The notes: generated by a model from the sequence alone, not told the origin. Counted from the stretch's first letter, positions 7,721 through 27,023 are shown. The stretch: DNA of 64,000 bases from Plantimonas leprariae (GCF_008802405.1 NZ_VZDO01000001.1:124001-188000), one strand, 5' to 3'. Translations and numbers: made by a program.

Positions 7721-8788
7721 ATGGCCTTGCCCCGCGCCCTGATCGAGCCGAAGCGCATCTATCTCGAACCCGCCGTCCGCGCCTATCCGCGCGGCCGCGA
7801 GGTGCTGGAGCGTTTTCCCGCAGCCGAACAGGTCGAGGTGGACAGCCACTGGCGCATCCCGCAGCTCTTCGAGGACGAGGCGCTCGCCGAGGATTGGCTG
7901 CGCATGAAGCGCGACGTGCTGGTGCTCGGCGTCAAGAAGGGCATGACCATGCGCCCGAACGGCCGCAGCGCCGACTTCATCGCGCCGTCCTCCTCGAACG
8001 GCTGCGCGATGGCTTGTTCCTATTGCTACGTGCCGCGCCGCAAGGGCTACAGCAACCCGGTCTCGGTCTTCGTCAACATCGACGACATCACCTGCGCCCT
8101 CGCCCGGCACGCCGCGAAGTTCGGGGCCAAGCCGGAGCCGAACACCGTCGATCCGAAGGACTGGGTCTACGACCTCGGCGAGAACGGCGACCTGTCGGTG
8201 GACGCGACCGTCTCCGGCAACGTCCGCGACCTCGTGGCGGCGTTCCGCGCCATCCCGAACGCCAAGGGTTCGTTCGCGACGAAATACATCAACCCGGACC
8301 TCCTCGCCTACGACCCGCAGGGGCGCACCCGCGTGCGCTTCTCGCTGATGCCGGAGCGGATGGCGAAGCTGGTCGACGTCAGGACCTCGCCGATGGGCGA
8401 GCGCATCCGGGCGATTAACGACTTCGTGCGCGCCGGCTACGAGGTGCACGCCAACTTCTCGCCGGTGATCGTGCACGAGGACTGGGAGGCGGAATGGCGC
8501 GAGCTCTTCGCCGAGATCGACGACGCGCTGGAGCCGGCGGCCAAGGCGCAGCTCAAGTGCGAGATCATCATGCTGACGCACAACGAGGGCCTGCACCGCG
8601 TCAACATGGACTGGCACCCGAAGGCGGAAGCGATGCTCTGGCGCCCGGACATCCAAGAGGACAAGACCAGCCAGAACGGCGCGCGGAACGTGCGCTACCG
8701 CACGCCCTGGAAGCGCCGCTGGCTCGACCAGTTCCTCGGCTGGATGCGCGAGCGCTTGCCCTATTGCGAAGTGCGCTACGCGTTCTGA
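7721..8788 (+). CDS. Radical SAM protein, spore photoproduct lyase family (divergent, TIGR03886-like)
   Basis: 355 residues. The 4Fe-4S/SAM motif is NGCAMACSYCYVPR (Cys95, Cys99, Cys102, CxxxCxxC). The remainder follows the SPL fold: NPVSVFVNIDDI, FATKYINPDLL, RTRVRFSLMPERM and a GYEVHANFSPVIVHEDWE-like core. In classical SplB an FEAxC segment carries the hydrogen-donor cysteine. The corresponding segment here reads VDATVSGN, with Val164 where Cys is expected by my hand alignment. A DNA-photolesion or other radical function is inferred; classical thymine-dimer reversal is uncertain. It lies 43 nt after glcE and ends 1 nt before the convergent GH15 gene. Confidence 0.87.
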   Translation: MALPRALIEPKRIYLEPAVRAYPRGREVLERFPAAEQVEVDSHWRIPQLFEDEALAEDWLRMKRDVLVLGVKKGMTMRPNGRSADFIAPSSSNGCAMACSYCYVPRRKGYSNPVSVFVNIDDITCALARHAAKFGAKPEPNTVDPKDWVYDLGENGDLSVDATVSGNVRDLVAAFRAIPNAKGSFATKYINPDLLAYDPQGRTRVRFSLMPERMAKLVDVRTSPMGERIRAINDFVRAGYEVHANFSPVIVHEDWEAEWRELFAEIDDALEPAAKAQLKCEIIMLTHNEGLHRVNMDWHPKAEAMLWRPDIQEDKTSQNGARNVRYRTPWKRRWLDQFLGWMRERLPYCEVRYAF

Positions 8789-16081: not shown

Positions 16082-17095
16082 ATGATCCCCCGACGCAACC
16101 AGCCCGCCTCGCCGCCCCGGACCGTCGTCGTCACCGGCGGCTCGTCCGGCATCGGCCGCGCGACGGCGCTGCGCTTCGCGCGCGCCGGCTGGCGGGTCGG
16201 CCTGATCGCCCGGGGCACGGCCGGCCTGGAGGACGCGCGGCGCGAGATCGAGCGCTCCGGCGCCCCATGCGCGACGGCGGTGGCGGACGTTTCCCTCGAT
16301 GCCGAGACGGAACGCGCGGCGGCCGCGCTCGAAGCCGCGCTCGGCCCCCTTACGGTCTGGGTGAACTCGGCCGGCAACGGCGTCTTCGGCCGGTTCCTCG
16401 ACGTTTCCGACGCCGAGTTCCGGCGCGTCACCGACGTCACCTACGGCGGCACGGTGAACGGCACGCGCGCCGCCCTGAAGCGCATGCGGCCGCGCGACGC
16501 CGGCGTCGTGATCAACGTCTGTTCCGGCGTCGCTTTCCACGGCATGCCGCTCCTGTCCTCCTATTCGGGCGCGAAATACGCCGTCCGCGGCTTTGCCGAC
16601 GCGGTGCGAAGCGAACTCCTGCAGGAGGCGAGCCGCGTCCGGATCACCACGGTCTTTCCGCCGGCGGTCAACACGCCCTACTTCCGGCACGCCGCCTCGC
16701 ATCTCGACCTGCCGCCGCGCCCCGCGAAGCCCGTCTACCAGCCGGAAGTCGTGGCCGAGGCGATCTTCCGCGCGGCGCTCGTGCCCCGCCGCGAGGTCGA
16801 GGTCTCGACGACGACCGTCCTCTTCGCCCTCGCGAACAAGCTAAGCCCCGCGCTGATGGACAAGGTCATCCGCCGCCTCGGCTACGACGGCCAGACGACG
16901 GCGAGCCACAAGGCGGCGCTGTCGCGCGACCCGACGCTGTTCGAGCCGTCGGCGAAGGCCTCCGGCGCGCGCGGCGATTTCGGCGACGAGGCGCGAGGGT
17001 TCAGCCTGCAGACCTGGGCGGACCGGCATCGCGGCGCGCTCGCCGCGGCCGGCGCGGGCGCCGTCCTCGCGGCCCTCTTCGTCCGCCGCCGCTAG
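16082..17095 (+). CDS. Short-chain dehydrogenase/reductase with C-terminal membrane anchor
   Basis: 337 residues. Rossmann motif TGGSSGIGRATAL (about residues 18-30), NSAG, a catalytic serine region NVCSG, and YSGAKYA carrying Tyr-x-x-x-Lys are all present. The C-terminus adds ADRHRGALAAAGAGAVLAALFVRRR, a short hydrophobic segment followed by arginines that could anchor the enzyme to the membrane. The substrate is unknown. Divergent from cyoA. Its TAG overlaps the TAG of the next gene on the opposite strand in the palindrome CTAG (17092-17095). Confidence 0.9.
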   Translation: MIPRRNQPASPPRTVVVTGGSSGIGRATALRFARAGWRVGLIARGTAGLEDARREIERSGAPCATAVADVSLDAETERAAAALEAALGPLTVWVNSAGNGVFGRFLDVSDAEFRRVTDVTYGGTVNGTRAALKRMRPRDAGVVINVCSGVAFHGMPLLSSYSGAKYAVRGFADAVRSELLQEASRVRITTVFPPAVNTPYFRHAASHLDLPPRPAKPVYQPEVVAEAIFRAALVPRREVEVSTTTVLFALANKLSPALMDKVIRRLGYDGQTTASHKAALSRDPTLFEPSAKASGARGDFGDEARGFSLQTWADRHRGALAAAGAGAVLAALFVRRR

Positions 17096-17937
17096 GAAGG
17101 GCCGACGAGGCGCTCCGTCGCGGCCCAGACCCGGGCGAGCAGCGCCGGATCTTCGGCGCGGCGGTTGGGCCGGACGACGCGCCGGTCCTTGAAATAGCGG
17201 CCGGATACCGCGGCGAGGTCCGGCGCGAGACAGAGATGCAGCGGGGTTTCCGCCCCCTCCTCCTCCGTCCGGAAGAAGGCGGCCAAGCCGCGCCATGCGA
17301 GGCCGATGACGCCGGGCGTGCGCACGAGCCCGGTCGCGACCGCCCCCGGATGCGCGACGTTGGCGGTGACGCCCGACGCTTCCAGCCGCCGCGCCCATTC
17401 GAAGGTCGTCATCATCACGCCGAGCTTCGAGCGGGAATAGGCGCTGACCATGTTCCAGCCACGCCTGAGTTCCAGGTCGTCCGGATCGATCGAGGCACGG
17501 TCGGACGAGCTCGAGCCGACGGTGACGATGCGTGCCGGCGCATTGGCGCGCAGAGTGGCGGCGAGCTCGCGCAGCAGCACGAAGGGGGCGAGGTGGTTCA
17601 CCGCCAGCACCCGCTCGTGACCCTCGTCCGTTTCCTCCCGCCGCGCGGCGAAGATGCCGGCATTGAGGACGAGGAGCGAGAGATTCGGATGGCTCGACGC
17701 CACTCGCCGACCGAGGTCGCGCGTCGCCGCGAGCGAGGAGAGGTCGACGAGTTCGAGCTCGGCCGAGCCCTCCGGCGCCTCCCGCGCGATGCGCGCCAGC
17801 ACCGCCTCGCCCTTCGCCGGATCGCGCCCGACCACCACGACATGATAGCCGGCACGCGCCAGTCCCAGCGCGACGAACCGGCCGATGCCCCCGGTGCCGC
17901 CCGTCACCACCGCGGTCTTGCGCGACGCCGCATCCAT
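17092..17937 (-). CDS. Short-chain dehydrogenase/reductase
   Basis: 281 residues. TGGTGGIGRFVALGLARAGYHVVVVGRD is the NADP-type Rossmann start, LVLNAGIF the NAG motif, and SAYSRSKLGVMM the YxxxK active site. It resembles the retinol dehydrogenase/WW-domain oxidoreductase-like bacterial SDRs; the substrate is unknown. It starts 5 nt after the uvsE stop on the same strand, so it is probably the last gene of the splB-DHH-uvsE transcription unit, although a link to repair is not evident from its sequence. Confidence 0.9.
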   Translation of the reverse strand: MDAASRKTAVVTGGTGGIGRFVALGLARAGYHVVVVGRDPAKGEAVLARIAREAPEGSAELELVDLSSLAATRDLGRRVASSHPNLSLLVLNAGIFAARREETDEGHERVLAVNHLAPFVLLRELAATLRANAPARIVTVGSSSSDRASIDPDDLELRRGWNMVSAYSRSKLGVMMTTFEWARRLEASGVTANVAHPGAVATGLVRTPGVIGLAWRGLAAFFRTEEEGAETPLHLCLAPDLAAVSGRYFKDRRVVRPNRRAEDPALLARVWAATERLVGPS

Positions 17938-17942
17938 GCCCG

Positions 17943-18992
17943 TCACGCCCCGCCCGCCACCGCTTCTTCTTCGATAACGTCGTCCTCCTCCGCTTCGAGT
18001 TCCACCGCATCCTTCGGCTCGATGCCGAAACGAGCGGCGACGTCCGGCGCGTAGCGCAGGAGATCGGGCCGAAGGCGCAGCAGCGCGAGATCCTTCGACT
18101 TCGCCTCCAGCATCACGTCGAAATCGAGCCCCTCCGCTTCCCGCATGAAGGTCGCGAACTCGAACGGATTGCAGAAGTCGGCGTGGCCGGTGAAGACGGG
18201 CGCGACGAAGACGGTCTTCTTCTTTTTCGTCTTCCGGTCGACCCGCACCTGCTCGCGCAGTTCCGTCCGCGGCGAGGAGAAGTGCAGCTTCGGCTGCTGT
18301 CCGTCCGGCCATGTGCCGAGGATGCGGGACAGGGTGTCGCGAAGCTCCAGCTTTTCCGGGTTCAGGCACCAGAAGTGCTGGTAGTCGAAGATCAGCCGGA
18401 CGCCGGTATGCTCGTGGATCCAGAGCACGTCGGCGGCCGAGAAGCGCAGGTCGTCGTGTTCGAGCACGAGCCGGCGGCGCACGGGTTCCGGCAGCGTCTT
18501 CCACGTCTCGGCCCAGCGGGCGCGAGAGGCCGGCACGTCGCCGTAGGTGCCGCCGACATGGATCACCAGCACGGCTTCGGGACCGAGTTCCATGAGGTCC
18601 AGCATCTCGGCCTGGCTGACGAGATCGGACGTGCTCTTCCGGATCAGCTCCGGGTCGGGACTGTTCAGGACGATGAACTGCGAGGGGTGGAACGACAGGC
18701 GGATATCGAGCCGCTTCGCCTTCGCGCCGAAGGCCGCGAGTTCGGCCCTGCTTTCGGCCACCATGCCGTGGAACTGCGGCATGTCGGGATGCGTCGCGTA
18801 GGGCGCGATGTCCGACGACATGCGGTACATGCGCACATCGTGCCGATCCAGATGGTCGAGGATCGCGTCGAGATATTCGAGCGAGACCTTGAGATGCGGA
18901 TTGCTGCCGGACTTCCGGGCGTCGTTGCTCTTCAGGTCCTGCCTCGCCATCACCTTCACGGGAAAGCCGAGGCGCGAGATGCGGGTGTTCAT
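17943..18992 (-). CDS. uvsE: UV damage endonuclease UvsE (UVDE family)
   Basis: 349 residues. UVDE proteins nick DNA immediately 5' of cyclobutane dimers, 6-4 products and abasic sites, starting an excision pathway independent of UvrABC. The TIM-barrel metal-site motifs are visible: RLSFHPSQF, VIHVGGTYGD, LVLEHDD, LIFDYQHFW, LHFSSPR and TGHADF. The acidic C-terminal tail (about 25 residues, EAEEDDVIEEE) is an extra relative to the core. ATG 18992 overlaps the DHH stop as ATGA, so it is translationally coupled to the DHH phosphoesterase. Confidence 0.93.
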   Translation of the reverse strand: MNTRISRLGFPVKVMARQDLKSNDARKSGSNPHLKVSLEYLDAILDHLDRHDVRMYRMSSDIAPYATHPDMPQFHGMVAESRAELAAFGAKAKRLDIRLSFHPSQFIVLNSPDPELIRKSTSDLVSQAEMLDLMELGPEAVLVIHVGGTYGDVPASRARWAETWKTLPEPVRRRLVLEHDDLRFSAADVLWIHEHTGVRLIFDYQHFWCLNPEKLELRDTLSRILGTWPDGQQPKLHFSSPRTELREQVRVDRKTKKKKTVFVAPVFTGHADFCNPFEFATFMREAEGLDFDVMLEAKSKDLALLRLRPDLLRYAPDVAARFGIEPKDAVELEAEEDDVIEEEAVAGGA

Positions 18993-20044
18993 GCGGCCTG
19001 CAATCCCAAGATCTCCAGCTCCGCGCCGAAGCCGACGGAGCGGATGAACCGGTTCCAGTCGGCGAACTCCAGCGCGCCGCCGGAGGCCGCGCGGTGGCCG
19101 TTGCCGTATTGCTCCGTCGCGCCGGGCGGCCGATGCTCGGCGAAGAAGGCGATGAGGTCGCGGTCCATCGCGGTCCGCGCGGCGAAATGCACCCAGCCCG
19201 GCCGATAGCCGGCATTCGCGGCGATGACGATCTTGTCCTTCAGCCGACCGCGCCAGGCCTGCGCGACGAGCGGATGGATCTGGCAGGGCGAGGCGAACCG
19301 GATCACCGCGACGTCGCCGAAGACCTTCGGCCCGACCTTGCGGGCGGCGTCGAGCTCAAGGTTCACCTCCGCCTTCGCGGCGAGGAGCGCTTCCGTCTCC
19401 GCGTGCTCGCCGGAGAGCACCGCCTTCGGTCCTTCCGCCTTCTCCAAGAGCGCGAAGGCGGCGGATGCGTCGCCCGATGCCGTGCGACGCGGTGCGTTGA
19501 CGAGGCTGACGGCCTTCCGCAGCGCCGTGATGCCCCCCTTGGCCTTCGCCTCCTCGAACTCGGCGAAGCCGTCGTCGTCGGCCATGTCGCCGATGATGCC
19601 GATGGCGGCCAGCCAGAGCAGGTCGTCCGCATCGCCGCACGCCCGCGCACAGCGGAAGGCGAGGAGGCTCGAGGTCGGGATGGGATCGTCGTCGACACCG
19701 GAGATCGTCGTGGCACCCGCCGGCAACCCGGTCGGCACGTGGTGATCGACCACGATCGCCGGAACGGAAGTCCGCAGCACGGACGAGGTGCCGACGTCCG
19801 CCAGGATCAGGCCGCCGAAGCGCATGCGTTGCAACTCGGCCTGGAACTCGGCGGAATAGGCGTTCTCGCCCTTGCCGACGATGCGAATCCTTGGACTGCG
19901 GTCGGACCGCTCCAGCGCTTTCTTCAGGATCACGCCGGCCGACAGGCCGTCGGCGTCGTTGTGGCAGACGATCAGCGGGTCCGATCCGAAGGCTTCCAGC
20001 GCCGCCGGAAACGCTTCCGGTCCCGATATGCCGTCTCGTGCCAC
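18989..20044 (-). CDS. DHH family phosphoesterase (RecJ-like or nanoRNase-like)
   Basis: 351 residues from GTG 20044, which has GAGG at ideal spacing; a TTG 12 nt upstream is the alternative. DHH signatures: IVCHNDADGLSAG (motif I), VDHHVP (the DHH itself) and later GIIGDMADDDGF. These are Mn2+-dependent phosphodiesterases, including RecJ 5'-3' exonuclease and oligoribonucleases. At this length it lacks the full RecJ OB-fold. Its coupling to uvsE and position after splB suggest trimming of nicked DNA ends, but that is inference. Confidence 0.86.
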   Translation of the reverse strand: MARDGISGPEAFPAALEAFGSDPLIVCHNDADGLSAGVILKKALERSDRSPRIRIVGKGENAYSAEFQAELQRMRFGGLILADVGTSSVLRTSVPAIVVDHHVPTGLPAGATTISGVDDDPIPTSSLLAFRCARACGDADDLLWLAAIGIIGDMADDDGFAEFEEAKAKGGITALRKAVSLVNAPRRTASGDASAAFALLEKAEGPKAVLSGEHAETEALLAAKAEVNLELDAARKVGPKVFGDVAVIRFASPCQIHPLVAQAWRGRLKDKIVIAANAGYRPGWVHFAARTAMDRDLIAFFAEHRPPGATEQYGNGHRAASGGALEFADWNRFIRSVGFGAELEILGLQAA

Positions 20045-20126
20045 GCCGAACCTCAATCGCTTCGAATGCCGAGCGGCTAACTTCGGGGTCGCGGAATCGA
20101 TCCTCCGGTTCCTGTGGATGATTGTC

Positions 20127-21221
20127 TCAGGTCCAGTAGAGGATGCGCGCCTGCGGCAGATGTTCGGCGATCCCTCGCTCGAAGAAGATCCTCGCCTCCT
20201 TCATGGTCGGGCGGTCGTAGACGTGCTTCACTGCGCCGAACTTCGTGCGCTTCTCGGTGCGGTTCAGGCTCGTCATGTCCAGCGCCGAGCCCGGATACCA
20301 GCTCTGCAGCACGGAACGCGACCCTTCCGTGAAGCGATGCGTGATCAGTTCGACGGTGAGGTCCGGGTCGGCCGCGACGCCGTCCAGCGCCGCCGCGACA
20401 TCGAGGACGAGGCCGTGATAGGCGTCCTCCCAACCCTCCACGAGGATGATCGGCGCGATCGTCAGGCCGATGCGGTATCCCGCCTCGGCCATCCGCCGCA
20501 TCGCCTGAAGCCGGGCCGCGACGGGGCTCGTGCCGCCCTCGAACCTGCCGTAGAGCGCCGGGTTCAGCGAGAAGCGCACGCGCGTCCGGCGGCCATGCTG
20601 GAGGTCGAGCAGCGGGTCGACGCTCGCGAACTTCGTGGTGAAGCGAAGCTGCGCGTCGGCATTCCACTGGCCGAAATGTTCGATCATCGCCGCCAGCGAT
20701 CCCGTCAGGTGCTCGACGCCGAGCGGGTCGGTGTAGCAGGAGGCCTCGAAGGTCGTGCCCTCCGCCTGGCGCGCCGCCTGCCGCGAGGTGACGGTGCCCT
20801 CGCCCACATAGGGCCTGAGGTTCGCGACGATTTCGTCGAGATTGGCATAGGCCCGCGTGATCGGCGCGCCCTTCAGCGAGCCCGCGAGATAGCAGTAATT
20901 GCAATGCGCCGGGCAGCCTTCGGCGAGATCGACGCGCCAATCGGCGGAGGGCGCGATCGGCTGCAGCTTCAGCTTCGAGGGCGGCGCGACGGTGACGGCG
21001 AGCGTCATCTTCGCCTCCGCGTAGGCGCGGCGCGGATCGTCGGATAAGGCGAGCGGCAGGCGGTCGGACTTCAATTCCTCGACGGGCAGGCCGAAACCCA
21101 CCGCCCGCTCCGCGATCGCCCGCCCGTGGGAGTGGCCGAGCGCCGACTTCGTCACCAGGACGCGCCGCGGCAGCCAAAGACGCTCGCGCTTCGCAACCGC
21201 GGCGGAAACGGGGAAGTTCAT
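20127..21221 (-). CDS. Spore photoproduct lyase-like radical SAM enzyme (SplB family)
   Basis: 364 residues. CPAHCNYCYL carries Cys103, Cys107 and Cys110 (CxxxCxxC) for the 4Fe-4S cluster. TTFEASCYTDPLGVEHLTG holds Cys162 at the place where Bacillus SplB keeps its hydrogen-atom-donor cysteine. The downstream motifs LRFTTKFASVDPLLD, RTRVRFSLNP and the C-terminal HRFTEGSRSVLQSWYP also follow the Bacillus enzyme closely. That enzyme directly reverses the thymine dimer spore photoproduct; here sporulation is not expected, so the lesion repaired in vivo is unclear. First gene of the minus-strand repair group, 82 nt before the DHH gene. Confidence 0.9.
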   Translation of the reverse strand: MNFPVSAAVAKRERLWLPRRVLVTKSALGHSHGRAIAERAVGFGLPVEELKSDRLPLALSDDPRRAYAEAKMTLAVTVAPPSKLKLQPIAPSADWRVDLAEGCPAHCNYCYLAGSLKGAPITRAYANLDEIVANLRPYVGEGTVTSRQAARQAEGTTFEASCYTDPLGVEHLTGSLAAMIEHFGQWNADAQLRFTTKFASVDPLLDLQHGRRTRVRFSLNPALYGRFEGGTSPVAARLQAMRRMAEAGYRIGLTIAPIILVEGWEDAYHGLVLDVAAALDGVAADPDLTVELITHRFTEGSRSVLQSWYPGSALDMTSLNRTEKRTKFGAVKHVYDRPTMKEARIFFERGIAEHLPQARILYWT

Positions 21222-21256: not shown

Positions 21257-21586
21257 GTGAAACGCGACCATCCGCACACGCCCGACGGCCGGTATTTCGC
21301 GGTGCGCGGCCGGCTCTGGCGGCTGTCGAACCCGAAGCTCGAACCGGCGGAACGCGAGCACTTCGTCAAGGAGCTGATGACGGGGCGACGGGCCGTCCGC
21401 GACGCCAAGACCGCCGAGGAACGGCAAGCCGCGCGGGCGGCCGTCGATGCGGCAAAACGGCGCCTCGGCGAGCGCGGCCCGGTGTGGTGGAGCGACGGCG
21501 CGCCGGACTACAACCGCCACATGGCGAAGAATACGCCCTATGCGGGCTGGTTCGCCGCACTCAACGAATCGGACAAGGAAGGCTAA
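21257..21586 (+). CDS. Conserved small protein of unknown function
   Basis: 109 residues, hydrophilic and basic. It opens with HTPDGRYFAVRGRLWRLSNP, has a central charged helical stretch (KELMTGRRAVRDAKTAEERQ), and closes with GPVWWSDGAPDYNRHMAKNT. The pattern resembles a family of short proteobacterial proteins annotated as hypothetical. No signal, metal site or membrane segment. It is divergent from the SplB-like gene with only 35 nt between the starts, so a shared promoter region is likely. Confidence 0.8.
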   Translation: MKRDHPHTPDGRYFAVRGRLWRLSNPKLEPAEREHFVKELMTGRRAVRDAKTAEERQAARAAVDAAKRRLGERGPVWWSDGAPDYNRHMAKNTPYAGWFAALNESDKEG

Positions 21587-22968: not shown

Positions 22969-23834
22969 CTGAACAGCCGCTCGTCCCCCTGCAAGGCAGC
23001 GACGATCTCGGCGGTTTCCGGCTCGCGCAGGACCGCGATGCTGTCCCCATCCTCCCGCCAATCGATCAGCCCGGCGTCGCGGAATTGGCCAAGCCAGTAC
23101 GTCATGCACCACGCGCCGTGCTTTTCGAGGTAGAGCGCGGCGTTGCGCAGGATGTGGCCGAAGTGCTGCAGCGGCGGCACGTGGACGGCGTGGTGCTGGT
23201 GATAGGCGCGGGCTCGCCCGAGCCAGTAGGTCGGGAGATCCGAATCCGCCATGCGGCAGGCGAAGTCGGTCTCCTCCGCGCCGTAGCCGGCGAAGCGCTC
23301 GTCCATGCCGCCGATGCGAAGGTACCGCTCGCGCGGCAGGGCGAAAGACAGGCCCCAAAGTTCCCCCGCATCCGGCTCAAGACGGATTCCATGCTTCGGC
23401 GGTTCGGGCTTTGCCGGATGGCGCGTGCCGATCCGGTCGAGCGCGGCGAAATCGAGCTCCCCCTCCCCGACCGCGCCGGCCGGCAGATAGTAGACTTCGC
23501 CGAGGAACAGCCCGTCCGCCTCGGCCCCCGCGGCGGCATAGTTCTCGACCAGCGTCGGCGAGGCGATGCAGTCGACGTCTAGGAAGACGAGCTGGTCGGA
23601 CGACGCGGCCTCCGCCGCGCGGTTGCGCGCCGCTGCGAGCGGCATCGGCTCGCCGGCCACGAGGACGTGCCGCACCGGGCAGCCGGGGTCCGGCAGATCG
23701 GTTGCCGGCTCCGGCTGCATCCAGGCGATCACCAGCTCGGCCGGCGGCACGGTCTGCACCGCCAGACTTCGCATCAGGTTGGCGAGATGGGTCCGGCGTC
23801 CCCGGACGAGCGTCAGGACGCTGTTGCCGGCCAT
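22965..23834 (-). CDS. Glycosyltransferase family 2 with GT7-like C-terminal domain
   Basis: 289 residues. GT-A start VLTLVRGRRTHLANLMRSL, then AAARNRAAEAASSDQLVFLDVDC with the DxD metal motif, and the C-terminal ELWGLSFALPRERYLRIGGMDERFAGYGAEETD. The latter is the WGGxxxD/E-like element of galactosyltransferase-type (GT7) domains found in bacterial GT2 proteins. Substrate unknown. Its start lies inside the last 22 nt of the SPS-like gene on the same strand, so the two are probably translated from one mRNA. Confidence 0.86.
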   Translation of the reverse strand: MAGNSVLTLVRGRRTHLANLMRSLAVQTVPPAELVIAWMQPEPATDLPDPGCPVRHVLVAGEPMPLAAARNRAAEAASSDQLVFLDVDCIASPTLVENYAAAGAEADGLFLGEVYYLPAGAVGEGELDFAALDRIGTRHPAKPEPPKHGIRLEPDAGELWGLSFALPRERYLRIGGMDERFAGYGAEETDFACRMADSDLPTYWLGRARAYHQHHAVHVPPLQHFGHILRNAALYLEKHGAWCMTYWLGQFRDAGLIDWREDGDSIAVLREPETAEIVAALQGDERLFS

Positions 23835-25906
23835 GCGGGGCTCGTGGCCGCTGCCATCCGGCGAAAATGGTCGACGCCCTCGATGATGCCGCGCGCATGG
23901 GTCTGGCGCGCGACGTAGGAATGCGTGAGCTCCGGGTGGCTGGCGAGGTCGTCGGAGAAGTTGCCGACGATGATCGCCTGCCTCGCGGTGCGCAGCATCT
24001 CGATGTCATTGCCCGAATCGCCGGCGACGAAGACCGCGCTCTCCGGCAGGCCGAGAAGATGCCGCACGTAGTCCACCGCCGTTCCCTTCGAGGCGCTGAC
24101 GGGCAGGATGTCGAGGTAGCGGCCGTGGCTGTGGATCACCGAGCAGAGGAGCCCCGCCCGCTCCAGCCGCTCGCGCACGTCGCGGGCGACGTGCCGGTCG
24201 CCGTCGGTGAAGTAGCTGAGCTTGAAGCGGCGCTGTTCCAGCGGCGCCTGCGGGCGGATGCCGGGAACCGTCTCCATCACGGCGCGGACCGCCTCGCGGT
24301 TCCAGCCTTCCCGCACGATCGCTTCCCAGTTCCGGTCGGCGGCGTAGGTCGTGCCGTTCGGCTGGAGGTGGTAGATCTCCGAGCCGACCGAGGTGATCAT
24401 CACCCGCGGGCGCGGTGCGTCCCACTGTTCGAGGATCGCCATCGCGCTGTGGAAGGAGCGGCCCGTCGCGACGCCGAAGGCGAGATCGCCCTGAAGGCGC
24501 TGCCAGTCGGTGAAGGAGCGGACGCCGTCGTTGCAGCCGACGAGCGTGTTGTCGATGTCGGACACGAGCAGCTGGCGCAGGAAGCGCGACGGCGCGCGCC
24601 GCTGCTTCAGGGCGGCGAGGAGCCCGTGATAGCGCGCCGCGTGCTTCGCCCAGTCGTAGGCGGCCACCGCCTTCGCGCCGGCGGCCGAATAGCGGTCCCA
24701 GAGGACCGGATCGTTCAGGATGCGTAGCGCCGCAGCGGCGATCGCGCCCGTCGAGCGCGGATCGACCAGTTCGCCGTTGCCGCACATCTCGATGATGTCG
24801 TTCGGGCCGCCGCTGTCGGTCGCGACCAGCGGCAGTCCGGCGGCGGAAGCTTCCAGGAGCGTCAGGCCGAAGGGCTCGTTCAGCGCCGGATTGACGAAGA
24901 CGCCGCGCCGCGCCCGCGCATAGGCGTAGATCGCCGCGACGTCCTCCGGCCGGTGCTGCTTCGGATAGGCGACGGAGCCGTAGAGGTCGTAGCGGTCGAC
25001 GAGGTCGAGGATGGCGCGCATCGTCGCGCCGGACTCCTCGTCGAGATCGGCGAGGTCGTCCCGGCAGCCGGCGACGACGAGGAGGTTGGCTTTCTCGCGC
25101 AGCGCCGGGCTCTCGCCGAAGGCCTGCACCAGCGCCCGCAGGTTCTTCTTCGCGACGGGCCGTGCCAGCGCCAGCAGCACCGGCTTTCCGGGATCGGTCA
25201 GGAAACGTGCGACGGACGCCTCGAAGTCCGGGCAGGACGCCGCCCCGCTGAGATGCTGCAGGTCGCTGCCCGGCGGCAGGATGCGGATGCGGCCGGGATC
25301 GTAGGCGCGGTAGCCGGCATACTGCACCTCCGCCTCGTCGCGCGACGAGGCAATGACGAGGTCGGCCTCGCGCAACGCCCCTTCCTCCGCCGCGATGCGG
25401 TGCGAGAAACCGGGGAACGGCTCGGCCCCGCCGGAACCGACGCCCATCGCCTCCGCCTTGACGCGCCCGAGCGAATGGCCGGTGAACAGGAAGGGGATGC
25501 CGAGTTGCCGCTTCACGATGGCCGCGACCGTCGCCGCATCGGCATAGTGGGCGTGGAGGAAGTCGGGCCGATCCGGCTGCGCCTCGATCCATTCGATCAG
25601 CCGTTCGGCGAAGCTCTCCGTTTCGCGCCAGAGCTCCTCCTTCGGAAGGTAGCCGGAATTCGCCGTGGGGAAGCGGACGATCTCGGTCCGCGCATCGACG
25701 CGCTCCGACGGCACGGCGTAATCATCGCCGTAGCGGCTCGCGAACGCGCGCGTCGCGACGACGATCCGCTTCGCCGCACCTTCCGCGGCGGAGGCCCGCA
25801 CGAGATCGAGCAGGTAGCGGATATGCCCGCCGGTGTCGGGCGTCAGGCCATATTCGACATTATGGCTTCTCAAACAACCTTGTAATGCTACATGAAGTAC
25901 AAACAC
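23813..25906 (-). CDS. Sucrose-phosphate synthase-like GT4 fused to a HAD sucrose-phosphatase domain
   Basis: 697 residues from the GTG at 25906, which sits 3 nt after GGAGGT. An ATG at 25963 would add 19 non-conserved residues. The N-terminal GT-B domain begins VFVLHVALQGCLR, then VEYGLTPDTGGHIRYLLDLV, HAHYADAATVA, TGHSLGRVK, RPVAKKNLRAL and NEPFGLTLLEA. The C-terminal HAD domain has SDIDNTLVG, FGVATGRSFHSA and GDSGNDIEML. This two-domain order is that of bacterial sucrose-phosphate synthases that dephosphorylate their own product. Sucrose or a related sugar as compatible solute is the likely product. Confidence 0.87.
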   Translation of the reverse strand: MFVLHVALQGCLRSHNVEYGLTPDTGGHIRYLLDLVRASAAEGAAKRIVVATRAFASRYGDDYAVPSERVDARTEIVRFPTANSGYLPKEELWRETESFAERLIEWIEAQPDRPDFLHAHYADAATVAAIVKRQLGIPFLFTGHSLGRVKAEAMGVGSGGAEPFPGFSHRIAAEEGALREADLVIASSRDEAEVQYAGYRAYDPGRIRILPPGSDLQHLSGAASCPDFEASVARFLTDPGKPVLLALARPVAKKNLRALVQAFGESPALREKANLLVVAGCRDDLADLDEESGATMRAILDLVDRYDLYGSVAYPKQHRPEDVAAIYAYARARRGVFVNPALNEPFGLTLLEASAAGLPLVATDSGGPNDIIEMCGNGELVDPRSTGAIAAAALRILNDPVLWDRYSAAGAKAVAAYDWAKHAARYHGLLAALKQRRAPSRFLRQLLVSDIDNTLVGCNDGVRSFTDWQRLQGDLAFGVATGRSFHSAMAILEQWDAPRPRVMITSVGSEIYHLQPNGTTYAADRNWEAIVREGWNREAVRAVMETVPGIRPQAPLEQRRFKLSYFTDGDRHVARDVRERLERAGLLCSVIHSHGRYLDILPVSASKGTAVDYVRHLLGLPESAVFVAGDSGNDIEMLRTARQAIIVGNFSDDLASHPELTHSYVARQTHARGIIEGVDHFRRMAAATSPAWPATAS

Positions 25907-25961
25907 ACAACCTCCATCGCATTTGAATTCAGTTCGAACGTCGCGCGAGATTTCTCCACGC

Positions 25962-27023
25962 ATGACTAAGTTAAAAATTGCTCAAATTTCCCCTAACATA
26001 TTTCCGGTTCCACCCATAGATCATGGCGGAACAGAGCGAATTGTTGCCGATCTTTGCACGGCACTTTCCTGCTCAGGTCACGACGTAACGCTGTTCGCCC
26101 CATCGGATAGTGCGACAGAATCGACTCTCGTCAGCCGTCTACCAAGTCTGGCGGCTTTGGAGCGGGAATACGGCAAGGTGCCGCCGTCGATCCCGGCCGT
26201 GCTGGAGGCCGTGCAGATGGAGCTCCTTCGGCGCCGGCTGCACGAGTTCGACGTCGTCCACTGCCACGGCGAGTTCGCCCATGCCGCGATGCTCGGCGAG
26301 CGGCGCGGGCGGAGCGTCACCACGATCCACTGGCGGGTGGACGAACTCGATCGCCGCCTGTTCTTCGCGGCCTTCCCCGACCTGCCGGTCGCGGCGATCT
26401 CGGCCTCGCAGGAAAGCGGCATCCCTTTGCCGAACCGCGCCGGCATCGTCCATCACGGCATCGAGCGGGATCGCTACGCGCCGAGCTTCGAGCCGGGCCG
26501 GCACCTCGCCTTCGTTGGCCGGATGACCGACCAGAAGCGCCCCGACACGGCGATCCGCGTAGCGCGGGCGGCCGGCCTGCCGATCCGGCTCGCCGGGACG
26601 GTGGACGTCGGCAACCCGACCTATTTCGAGCGCGAGGTGCGGCCGCTGCTCGGCGGCGACGCGGTCTATCTCGGCCCCCTCGCCGACGGGCCGAAGCGCG
26701 AGCTGCTGGCGGGCGCGTCGGCGCTGCTGCTCCCGGTCGACTGGCCGGAGCCGTTCGGGCTGGTGATGATCGAGGCGATGGCCTGCGGCACGCCGGTCGT
26801 CGCGTGGAACCGTGGCAGCGTCCGGGAAGTGGTGGAGGACGGCGTCACGGGCTTCGTCGTCGAGAACGAGGCGGAGGCACTCGAAGCGCTCGGCCGGATC
26901 GGCGAACTCGACCGACGCCTGATCCGGCAGCGCTTCGAGGCGCGCTTCACCGCGGACCGCATGGCGGCGGACTACGTCGCGATCTACCGGACCTTGATGG
27001 AGCGCGCATGCGCGTCGGCCTGA
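25962..27023 (+). CDS. Glycosyltransferase family 4
   Basis: 353 residues from ATG 25962. KLKIAQISPNIFPVPPIDHGGTERIV is a canonical GT4 N-terminus; LAFVGRMTDQKRPDTAIRVA and WPEPFGLVMIEAMACGTPVVAWNRGS (the ExxxxxxxE motif) define the nucleotide-sugar half. The first 150-180 nt of the gene are clearly AT-rich compared with the rest, as is the 5' end of the divergent SPS-like gene. It overlaps the next GT4 gene by 16 nt, so the two are co-expressed. Substrate unknown. Confidence 0.9.
   Translation: MTKLKIAQISPNIFPVPPIDHGGTERIVADLCTALSCSGHDVTLFAPSDSATESTLVSRLPSLAALEREYGKVPPSIPAVLEAVQMELLRRRLHEFDVVHCHGEFAHAAMLGERRGRSVTTIHWRVDELDRRLFFAAFPDLPVAAISASQESGIPLPNRAGIVHHGIERDRYAPSFEPGRHLAFVGRMTDQKRPDTAIRVARAAGLPIRLAGTVDVGNPTYFEREVRPLLGGDAVYLGPLADGPKRELLAGASALLLPVDWPEPFGLVMIEAMACGTPVVAWNRGSVREVVEDGVTGFVVENEAEALEALGRIGELDRRLIRQRFEARFTADRMAADYVAIYRTLMERACASA

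Follow-up and report, generated by a model that had tools for sequence, protein, structure and literature searches.

Enzymes of the UvsE family, which incise DNA on the 5' side of UV damage such as CPD and 6-4 photoproducts, generate a 3'-OH and, on the part of the strand that bears the lesion, a 5'-phosphorylated end; they underlie the alternative excision repair known from Thermus, Deinococcus and, in the form of Uve1, fission yeast. The known UvsE/UVDE pathways rely on unlinked nucleases and, as far as we are aware, it has not been settled which nuclease takes away the damaged strand in bacteria once UvsE has nicked it; a nuclease gene that overlaps uvsE is a direct candidate for this step. 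The spore photoproduct, a lesion of dehydrated, A-form DNA, is reversed by the spore photoproduct lyase (SPL) SplB. Catalytic roles have been assigned to the residues of this enzyme (PMC3742179), SOS regulation of splB has been proposed in alpha- and betaproteobacteria (PMC3323433) and earlier publications already record SPL in bacteria that do not sporulate: it has been described in a desert Deinococcus, which forms no spores (PMC3314630), and in Curtobacterium, where it is UV-induced and where it has been argued that drying leads to A-form DNA and thereby to the spore photoproduct (PMC12029717).

We report the analysis of a locus in which an splB-like gene, the gene of a small DHH phosphoesterase and uvsE lie together. 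The window, by which we mean the whole 64-kb stretch of DNA that was analysed, belongs to a genome of 4.77 Mb in 39 contigs whose nearest named relatives are Aureimonas. We consider it rather probable, from sequence and structural modelling, that the core of the locus is a two-gene UV excision-repair unit in which UvsE would nick the DNA and the DHH protein, here called mini-RecJ, would remove the damaged strand, the activity of the latter being a prediction. The open-licence papers that we searched hold no description of SPL, UvsE and a DHH protein together, nor of UvsE gene neighbourhoods, and the coupling of the incision enzyme with a RecJ-type core is apparently undescribed.

Organisation of the locus

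A first-pass annotation, made from the DNA alone, had placed the three genes head to tail on one strand, with an ATGA overlap between the DHH gene and uvsE; both observations hold (17943–21221, minus strand; Table 1). SPL and DHH are separated by 70 nt, DHH and uvsE overlap by 4 nt and uvsE is followed after 5 nt by a gene for an SDR. A scan for sigma-70 promoters and terminators found none. An anti-phage defence function was also considered and was rejected when PADLOC returned no match.

Divergent from SPL lies a gene whose 109-aa product belongs to no known family; it adjoins SPL in A. psammosilenae too, and in three Tianweitania it is found around 2.5 kb upstream of the DHH-uvsE pair. A bifunctional sucrose-phosphate synthase/phosphatase-like protein, for which a desiccation-protectant function is possible, is encoded near the repair genes.

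Table 1. Features of the window discussed in the text
Feature	Position	Strand	Remarks
Second SPL paralogue	7739-8788	+	TIGR03886, 602 bits; 11 kb away from the other SPL
SDR	17092-17937	-	ORF 3' of uvsE
uvsE, UV damage endonuclease	17943-18992	-	349 aa; TIGR00629 151 bits
ATGA overlap, DHH stop / uvsE start	18989-18992	-	4 nt; read from sequence
DHH phosphoesterase (mini-RecJ)	18989-20056	-	355 aa; called start TTG
Spore photoproduct lyase (SPL, splB-like)	20127-21221	-	364 aa; PF20903 E=1.4e-79
109-aa protein	21257-21586	+	
Sucrose-phosphate synthase/phosphatase-like protein	23813-25963	-	

The two proteins of the pair

The DHH protein has no Pfam match at E<=0.001. It matches the archaeal RecJ family NF053576 of NCBIfam (E=3e-15), and profile-profile comparison with alphaproteobacterial RecJ covers its positions 22-337 (E 2.6e-13), the RecJ match stopping within DHHA1, such that the OB fold and the C-terminal domain are absent from this protein of 355 aa. 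An AlphaFold2 model (pLDDT 92.3, pTM 0.89) submitted to Foldseek returned archaeal RecJ/Cdc45 and bacterial RecJ at the top (E ~4e-17 to 1e-12), with NrnA/PDE folds ranking lower (E ~3e-12 to 1e-9). The highest target-normalised TM-score was that of an archaeal PAP phosphatase, 8a8k (TMt 0.74), which is also found by sequence (positions 22-276), and a small-nucleotide substrate of the DHH protein is therefore possible.

Across 14 diverse members of the family, Deinococcus included, ten residues do not vary: D34, D36, D87, D104, H105, H106, D157, R191, R294 and H321. Amongst the same members position 62 is K or R and position 67 is Y, W or F. K62, R191 and R294 align to R109, R280 and R373 of the 5'-phosphate pocket of Deinococcus RecJ, and Y67 to Y114 of that enzyme, a base-stacking residue that clashes with ribose; within the pocket, the serine S371 is replaced by an alanine (A292) and R109 by lysine. 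By sequence and predicted fold, we take the protein to be a RecJ-type catalytic core, consisting of DHH and DHHA1 without the OB and C-terminal domains: a RecJ-like core, not RecJ, which would have evolved as a small accessory nuclease. The earlier view of a DNA-related protein has held up, as no grouping with cytosolic oligoribonucleases was seen, and the modelled fold and the sequence both support a place beside the DNA-acting RecJ.

The host genome encodes a full-length RecJ besides mini-RecJ. The family is rare, with a strong match in 2 of 385 genomes of a class-wide sample, where the remaining matches were ordinary RecJ. Plasmids of Deinococcus aetherius and D. taeanensis (L052, L053) carry a stand-alone relative of mini-RecJ (39% identity, annotated as hypothetical), near which no uvsE is annotated. 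A 2024 paper on the DHH/DHHA1 proteins of D. radiodurans treats RecJ and NrnA only (PMC11229311); the plasmid relatives are a third kind beside these two.

The UvsE protein scores above the curated cut-off of its family (TIGR00629, 151.1 vs 124.45 bits; PF03851, 174.4 vs 24). In the alignment to Thermus UVDE, numbered as the PDB chain minus 21, its residues H68, H102, H145, E178, D203, H206, K235 and H237 are identical to H69, H101, H143, E175, D200, H203, K229 and H231 and its Q105 to the probe Q104, with Thermus Y105 replaced by F106; these are presumably the metal ligands, the modified lysine and the lesion-probing residues. The last Thermus ligand, E269, falls outside the alignment, and E296 is its likely equivalent. 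In the tree this UvsE belongs to a divergent alphaproteobacterial subfamily, set off by a very long branch from the uvsE genes that other genomes in its order and class carry. The DHH-linked uvsE genes are scattered through this subfamily and form no single clade. As the same subfamily occurs without a DHH gene in two genomes (G052 and G014), UvsE does not need DHH; at four further loci and on a Falsirhodobacter plasmid no DHH adjoins the uvsE. Directly upstream of one DHH-less uvsE of the subfamily, on the same strand, lies the gene of a repressor that we take, by eye, to be LexA-like (L041:709-2520, G349).

Conservation of the pair and of its neighbours

Using the DHH protein as the query and bridge for a neighbourhood scan of GTDB representative genomes, we found 22 loci with close DHH relatives, in Aureimonas, Mangrovicella, Tianweitania, Paracoccus and Rubellimicrobium. 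At 15 of these uvsE adjoins DHH, the two being apart at seven loci of AU22-type Aureimonas. The same pair is found on plasmids of Paracoccus, Roseomonas and Pelagibacterium and in a genome of another family (G684). The genes overlap in all 20 adjacent loci (by 4 nt in 17, by 1 nt in two and by 8 nt in one), which span at least five families and both chromosomes and plasmids, and in most cases the genes on either side of the pair vary from one lineage to the next. Because it recurs in 20 loci, the adjacency is not a matter of chance. A uvsE sequence was present in each of the 21 DHH-bearing genomes searched, including those in which the genes are apart, and the pairwise protein distances of DHH and UvsE are correlated at r=0.81, a value uncorrected for shared species history. 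We regard DHH and uvsE as a conserved two-gene unit, apparently translationally coupled, that reaches well beyond close strains, and, to judge by the overlap, translation of the two proteins may be coupled and their synthesis matched.

In the AU22 clade of Aureimonas the uvsE sequence has moved away from DHH, and in several of these genomes the contigs end within it. We ascribe what looks like loss and fragmentation of uvsE here to an rRNA operon at its 3' end, since this breaks assemblies and the stubs end in identical stretches. Insertion of a mobile element and 5'-truncated retrocopies were also considered as causes, and the rRNA operon at the 3' end of uvsE fits better than either. In two of these genomes (L144 and L146, of G738 and G735) uvsE and an rRNA operon stand tail to tail, the operon's 5S end facing uvsE, and further truncated uvsE stubs at contig ends share identical stretches of 76-127 nt, which suggests copies of the rRNA operon that carry uvsE remnants.

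The SPL protein presents a different picture. Its cluster cysteines C103/C107/C110 (CxxxCxxC) align to C90/C94/C97 of the Geobacillus enzyme, and Y109/Y111 and C162 to Y96/Y98 and the donor C140, so that, as far as the alignment can tell, it has every residue known to be necessary for spore photoproduct reversal. The first-pass annotation had thus read the cysteines correctly; in calling the protein a close relative of SplB it was generous, as SPL lies below the SplB equivalog cut-off (TIGR04070, 278 vs 400 bits) and shares 35% identity with a Bacillus SplB. Relatives of this SPL group are found in Aureimonas, Roseomonas, Granulicella and cyanobacteria. It adjoins DHH, in the same order, only in the window genome and in A. 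psammosilenae, that is, in two of the 20 DHH-uvsE loci; other Aureimonas have it elsewhere in the genome and 11 of the 21 DHH-bearing genomes searched gave no SPL match. The notion of a conserved gene group therefore survives for DHH and uvsE and not for an order that recurs with splB. Nor did the SDR prove to be a fourth member: it lies around 1 kb from the pair in A. psammosilenae and was not found beside DHH-uvsE in the other loci examined. We take SPL to be a local addition beside the pair, with a putative separate function in direct reversal, and not a conserved member, which fits the same sunlight-and-drying niche as the pair.

As the first-pass annotation had noted, nothing suggests sporulation here, the markers SASP (PF00269) and Spo0A (PF08769) being absent from the host genome and both detected in a B. 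subtilis control. Control of SPL by the SOS response through the canonical alphaproteobacterial LexA box was considered and rejected: the 64-kb window holds no exact GTTC-N7-GTTC site, and its one-mismatch sites number 47, against 47.25 expected; neither of the two SPL genes nor DHH has one of them upstream.

The second SPL, of the TIGR03886 type, keeps the cluster cysteines but lacks the donor cysteine, and may catalyse a reaction other than that of SplB; the alignment was read without its L136 row, which is of the wrong strand. The two SPL types coexist in A. psammosilenae, in Roseomonas and in several genomes from a further family of the order. On a Roseomonas plasmid they are overlapping neighbours right after repAB (L050:2299-4420), with DHH-uvsE 20 kb off. 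In two other genomes (L138 of G048 and L171 of G698) a different, canonical-type uvsE directly precedes the TIGR03886-type SPL, which looks truncated in G048; from this order we conclude that linkage of SPL and uvsE arose more than once, yet is uncommon. The pair marks a set of UV- and desiccation-exposed, non-sporulating bacteria, with two SPL types, that are suited to the study of dry-DNA lesions.

The proposed excision unit and its relation to known systems

In the mechanism we propose, UvsE would nick the strand 5' of the UV lesion, the co-translated mini-RecJ would bind the 5' phosphate of the nicked strand and degrade a short stretch of this strand in the 5' to 3' direction, and polymerase and ligase would then close the gap. 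The product of UvsE is a 5'-phosphorylated strand that starts at the lesion and is therefore what a RecJ-type pocket would bind; since it has no OB domain, mini-RecJ may be of low processivity, as would be fitting for a short patch. Whilst gene order, co-occurrence, fold and residues are observed, we infer the polarity, substrate and activity of mini-RecJ. In favour of the excision unit are the 20 overlapping pairs, the co-occurrence, the match to a RecJ-type core, the pocket residues and the intact aligned metal ligands of UvsE. Against it count the missing OB domain, which helps RecJ to hold single-stranded DNA, the changes of S371 to A292 and of R109 to K62, the target-normalised fold match to PAP phosphatase, the occurrence of the uvsE subfamily without DHH, the separation of the genes in AU22-type Aureimonas and the full-length RecJ of the window genome.

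A different function for the DHH protein, as a clean-up oligonucleotidase or pAp/pApA phosphatase that acts, for example, on dimer-containing fragments after repair begun by UvsE and does not itself remove the lesion, seems to us unlikely, if the most serious of the rival explanations. Stand-alone DHH-DHHA1 proteins of around 355 aa are usually NrnA-type oligonucleotidases, and the best target-normalised fold match, which extends to sequence, is with PAP phosphatase; yet the E-values of both sequence and fold favour RecJ, the 5'-phosphate arginines and base-stacking aromatic of RecJ are kept and a general nanoRNase is hard to reconcile with pairing to a DNA-damage endonuclease.

We give still less credence to a functional unit of all three genes, combining direct reversal by SPL with nicking and end processing. 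The common strand, the short gap between SPL and DHH, the order shared with A. psammosilenae, the presence of SPL and the pair on one Roseomonas plasmid and the uvsE-SPL neighbours of the other types in G048 and G698 are all in keeping with it, but the rarity of SPL beside the pair and the many DHH-bearing genomes in which it has no match speak against it, and SPL repairs alone, with no requirement for nicking that we know of. That DHH and uvsE keep company fortuitously, or are both merely carried along in plasmid-borne stress islands, with no joint work, we hold to be very improbable: several copies of the pair do reside on large plasmids, but the genes overlap at every adjacent locus amid mostly unrelated flanks, and uvsE accompanies DHH even where the two are unlinked. 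We return, then, to the excision unit of UvsE and mini-RecJ. A broader proposal, which we advance tentatively and think possible rather than probable, is that the two form a dedicated, portable UV excision pathway of nicking and 5'-phosphate-guided removal, independent of UvrABC and RecJ, that has spread among sun- and desiccation-exposed alphaproteobacteria and has a stand-alone relative of its nuclease in Deinococcus.

Measured against the described systems, the locus resembles UvsE/UVDE excision repair in its score above the TIGR00629 cut-off and in the aligned metal ligands, modified lysine and probe glutamine, and differs in belonging to a divergent subfamily on a very long branch and in having its own linked gene for a RecJ-type nuclease. 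With SplB, the SPL shares the CxxxCxxC radical-SAM motif and the equivalents of Y96/Y98 and of the donor C140, whereas it falls below the equivalog cut-off, in a host without SASP or Spo0A and behind a promoter without a canonical LexA box. The oligonucleotidases of the NrnA/DhhP type and the PAP phosphatases have the two-domain size and the fold of mini-RecJ, but give weaker fold E-values than RecJ, and mini-RecJ keeps the RecJ-type pocket residues. To the bacterial RecJ 5'-3' single-stranded DNA exonuclease it is related by the DHH and DHHA1 core, the metal ligands, the basic pocket, the aromatic residue and the general-acid histidine, and is set apart by its length of 355 aa against 594-612, by the lack of the OB and C-terminal domains and by the alanine in place of the pocket serine.
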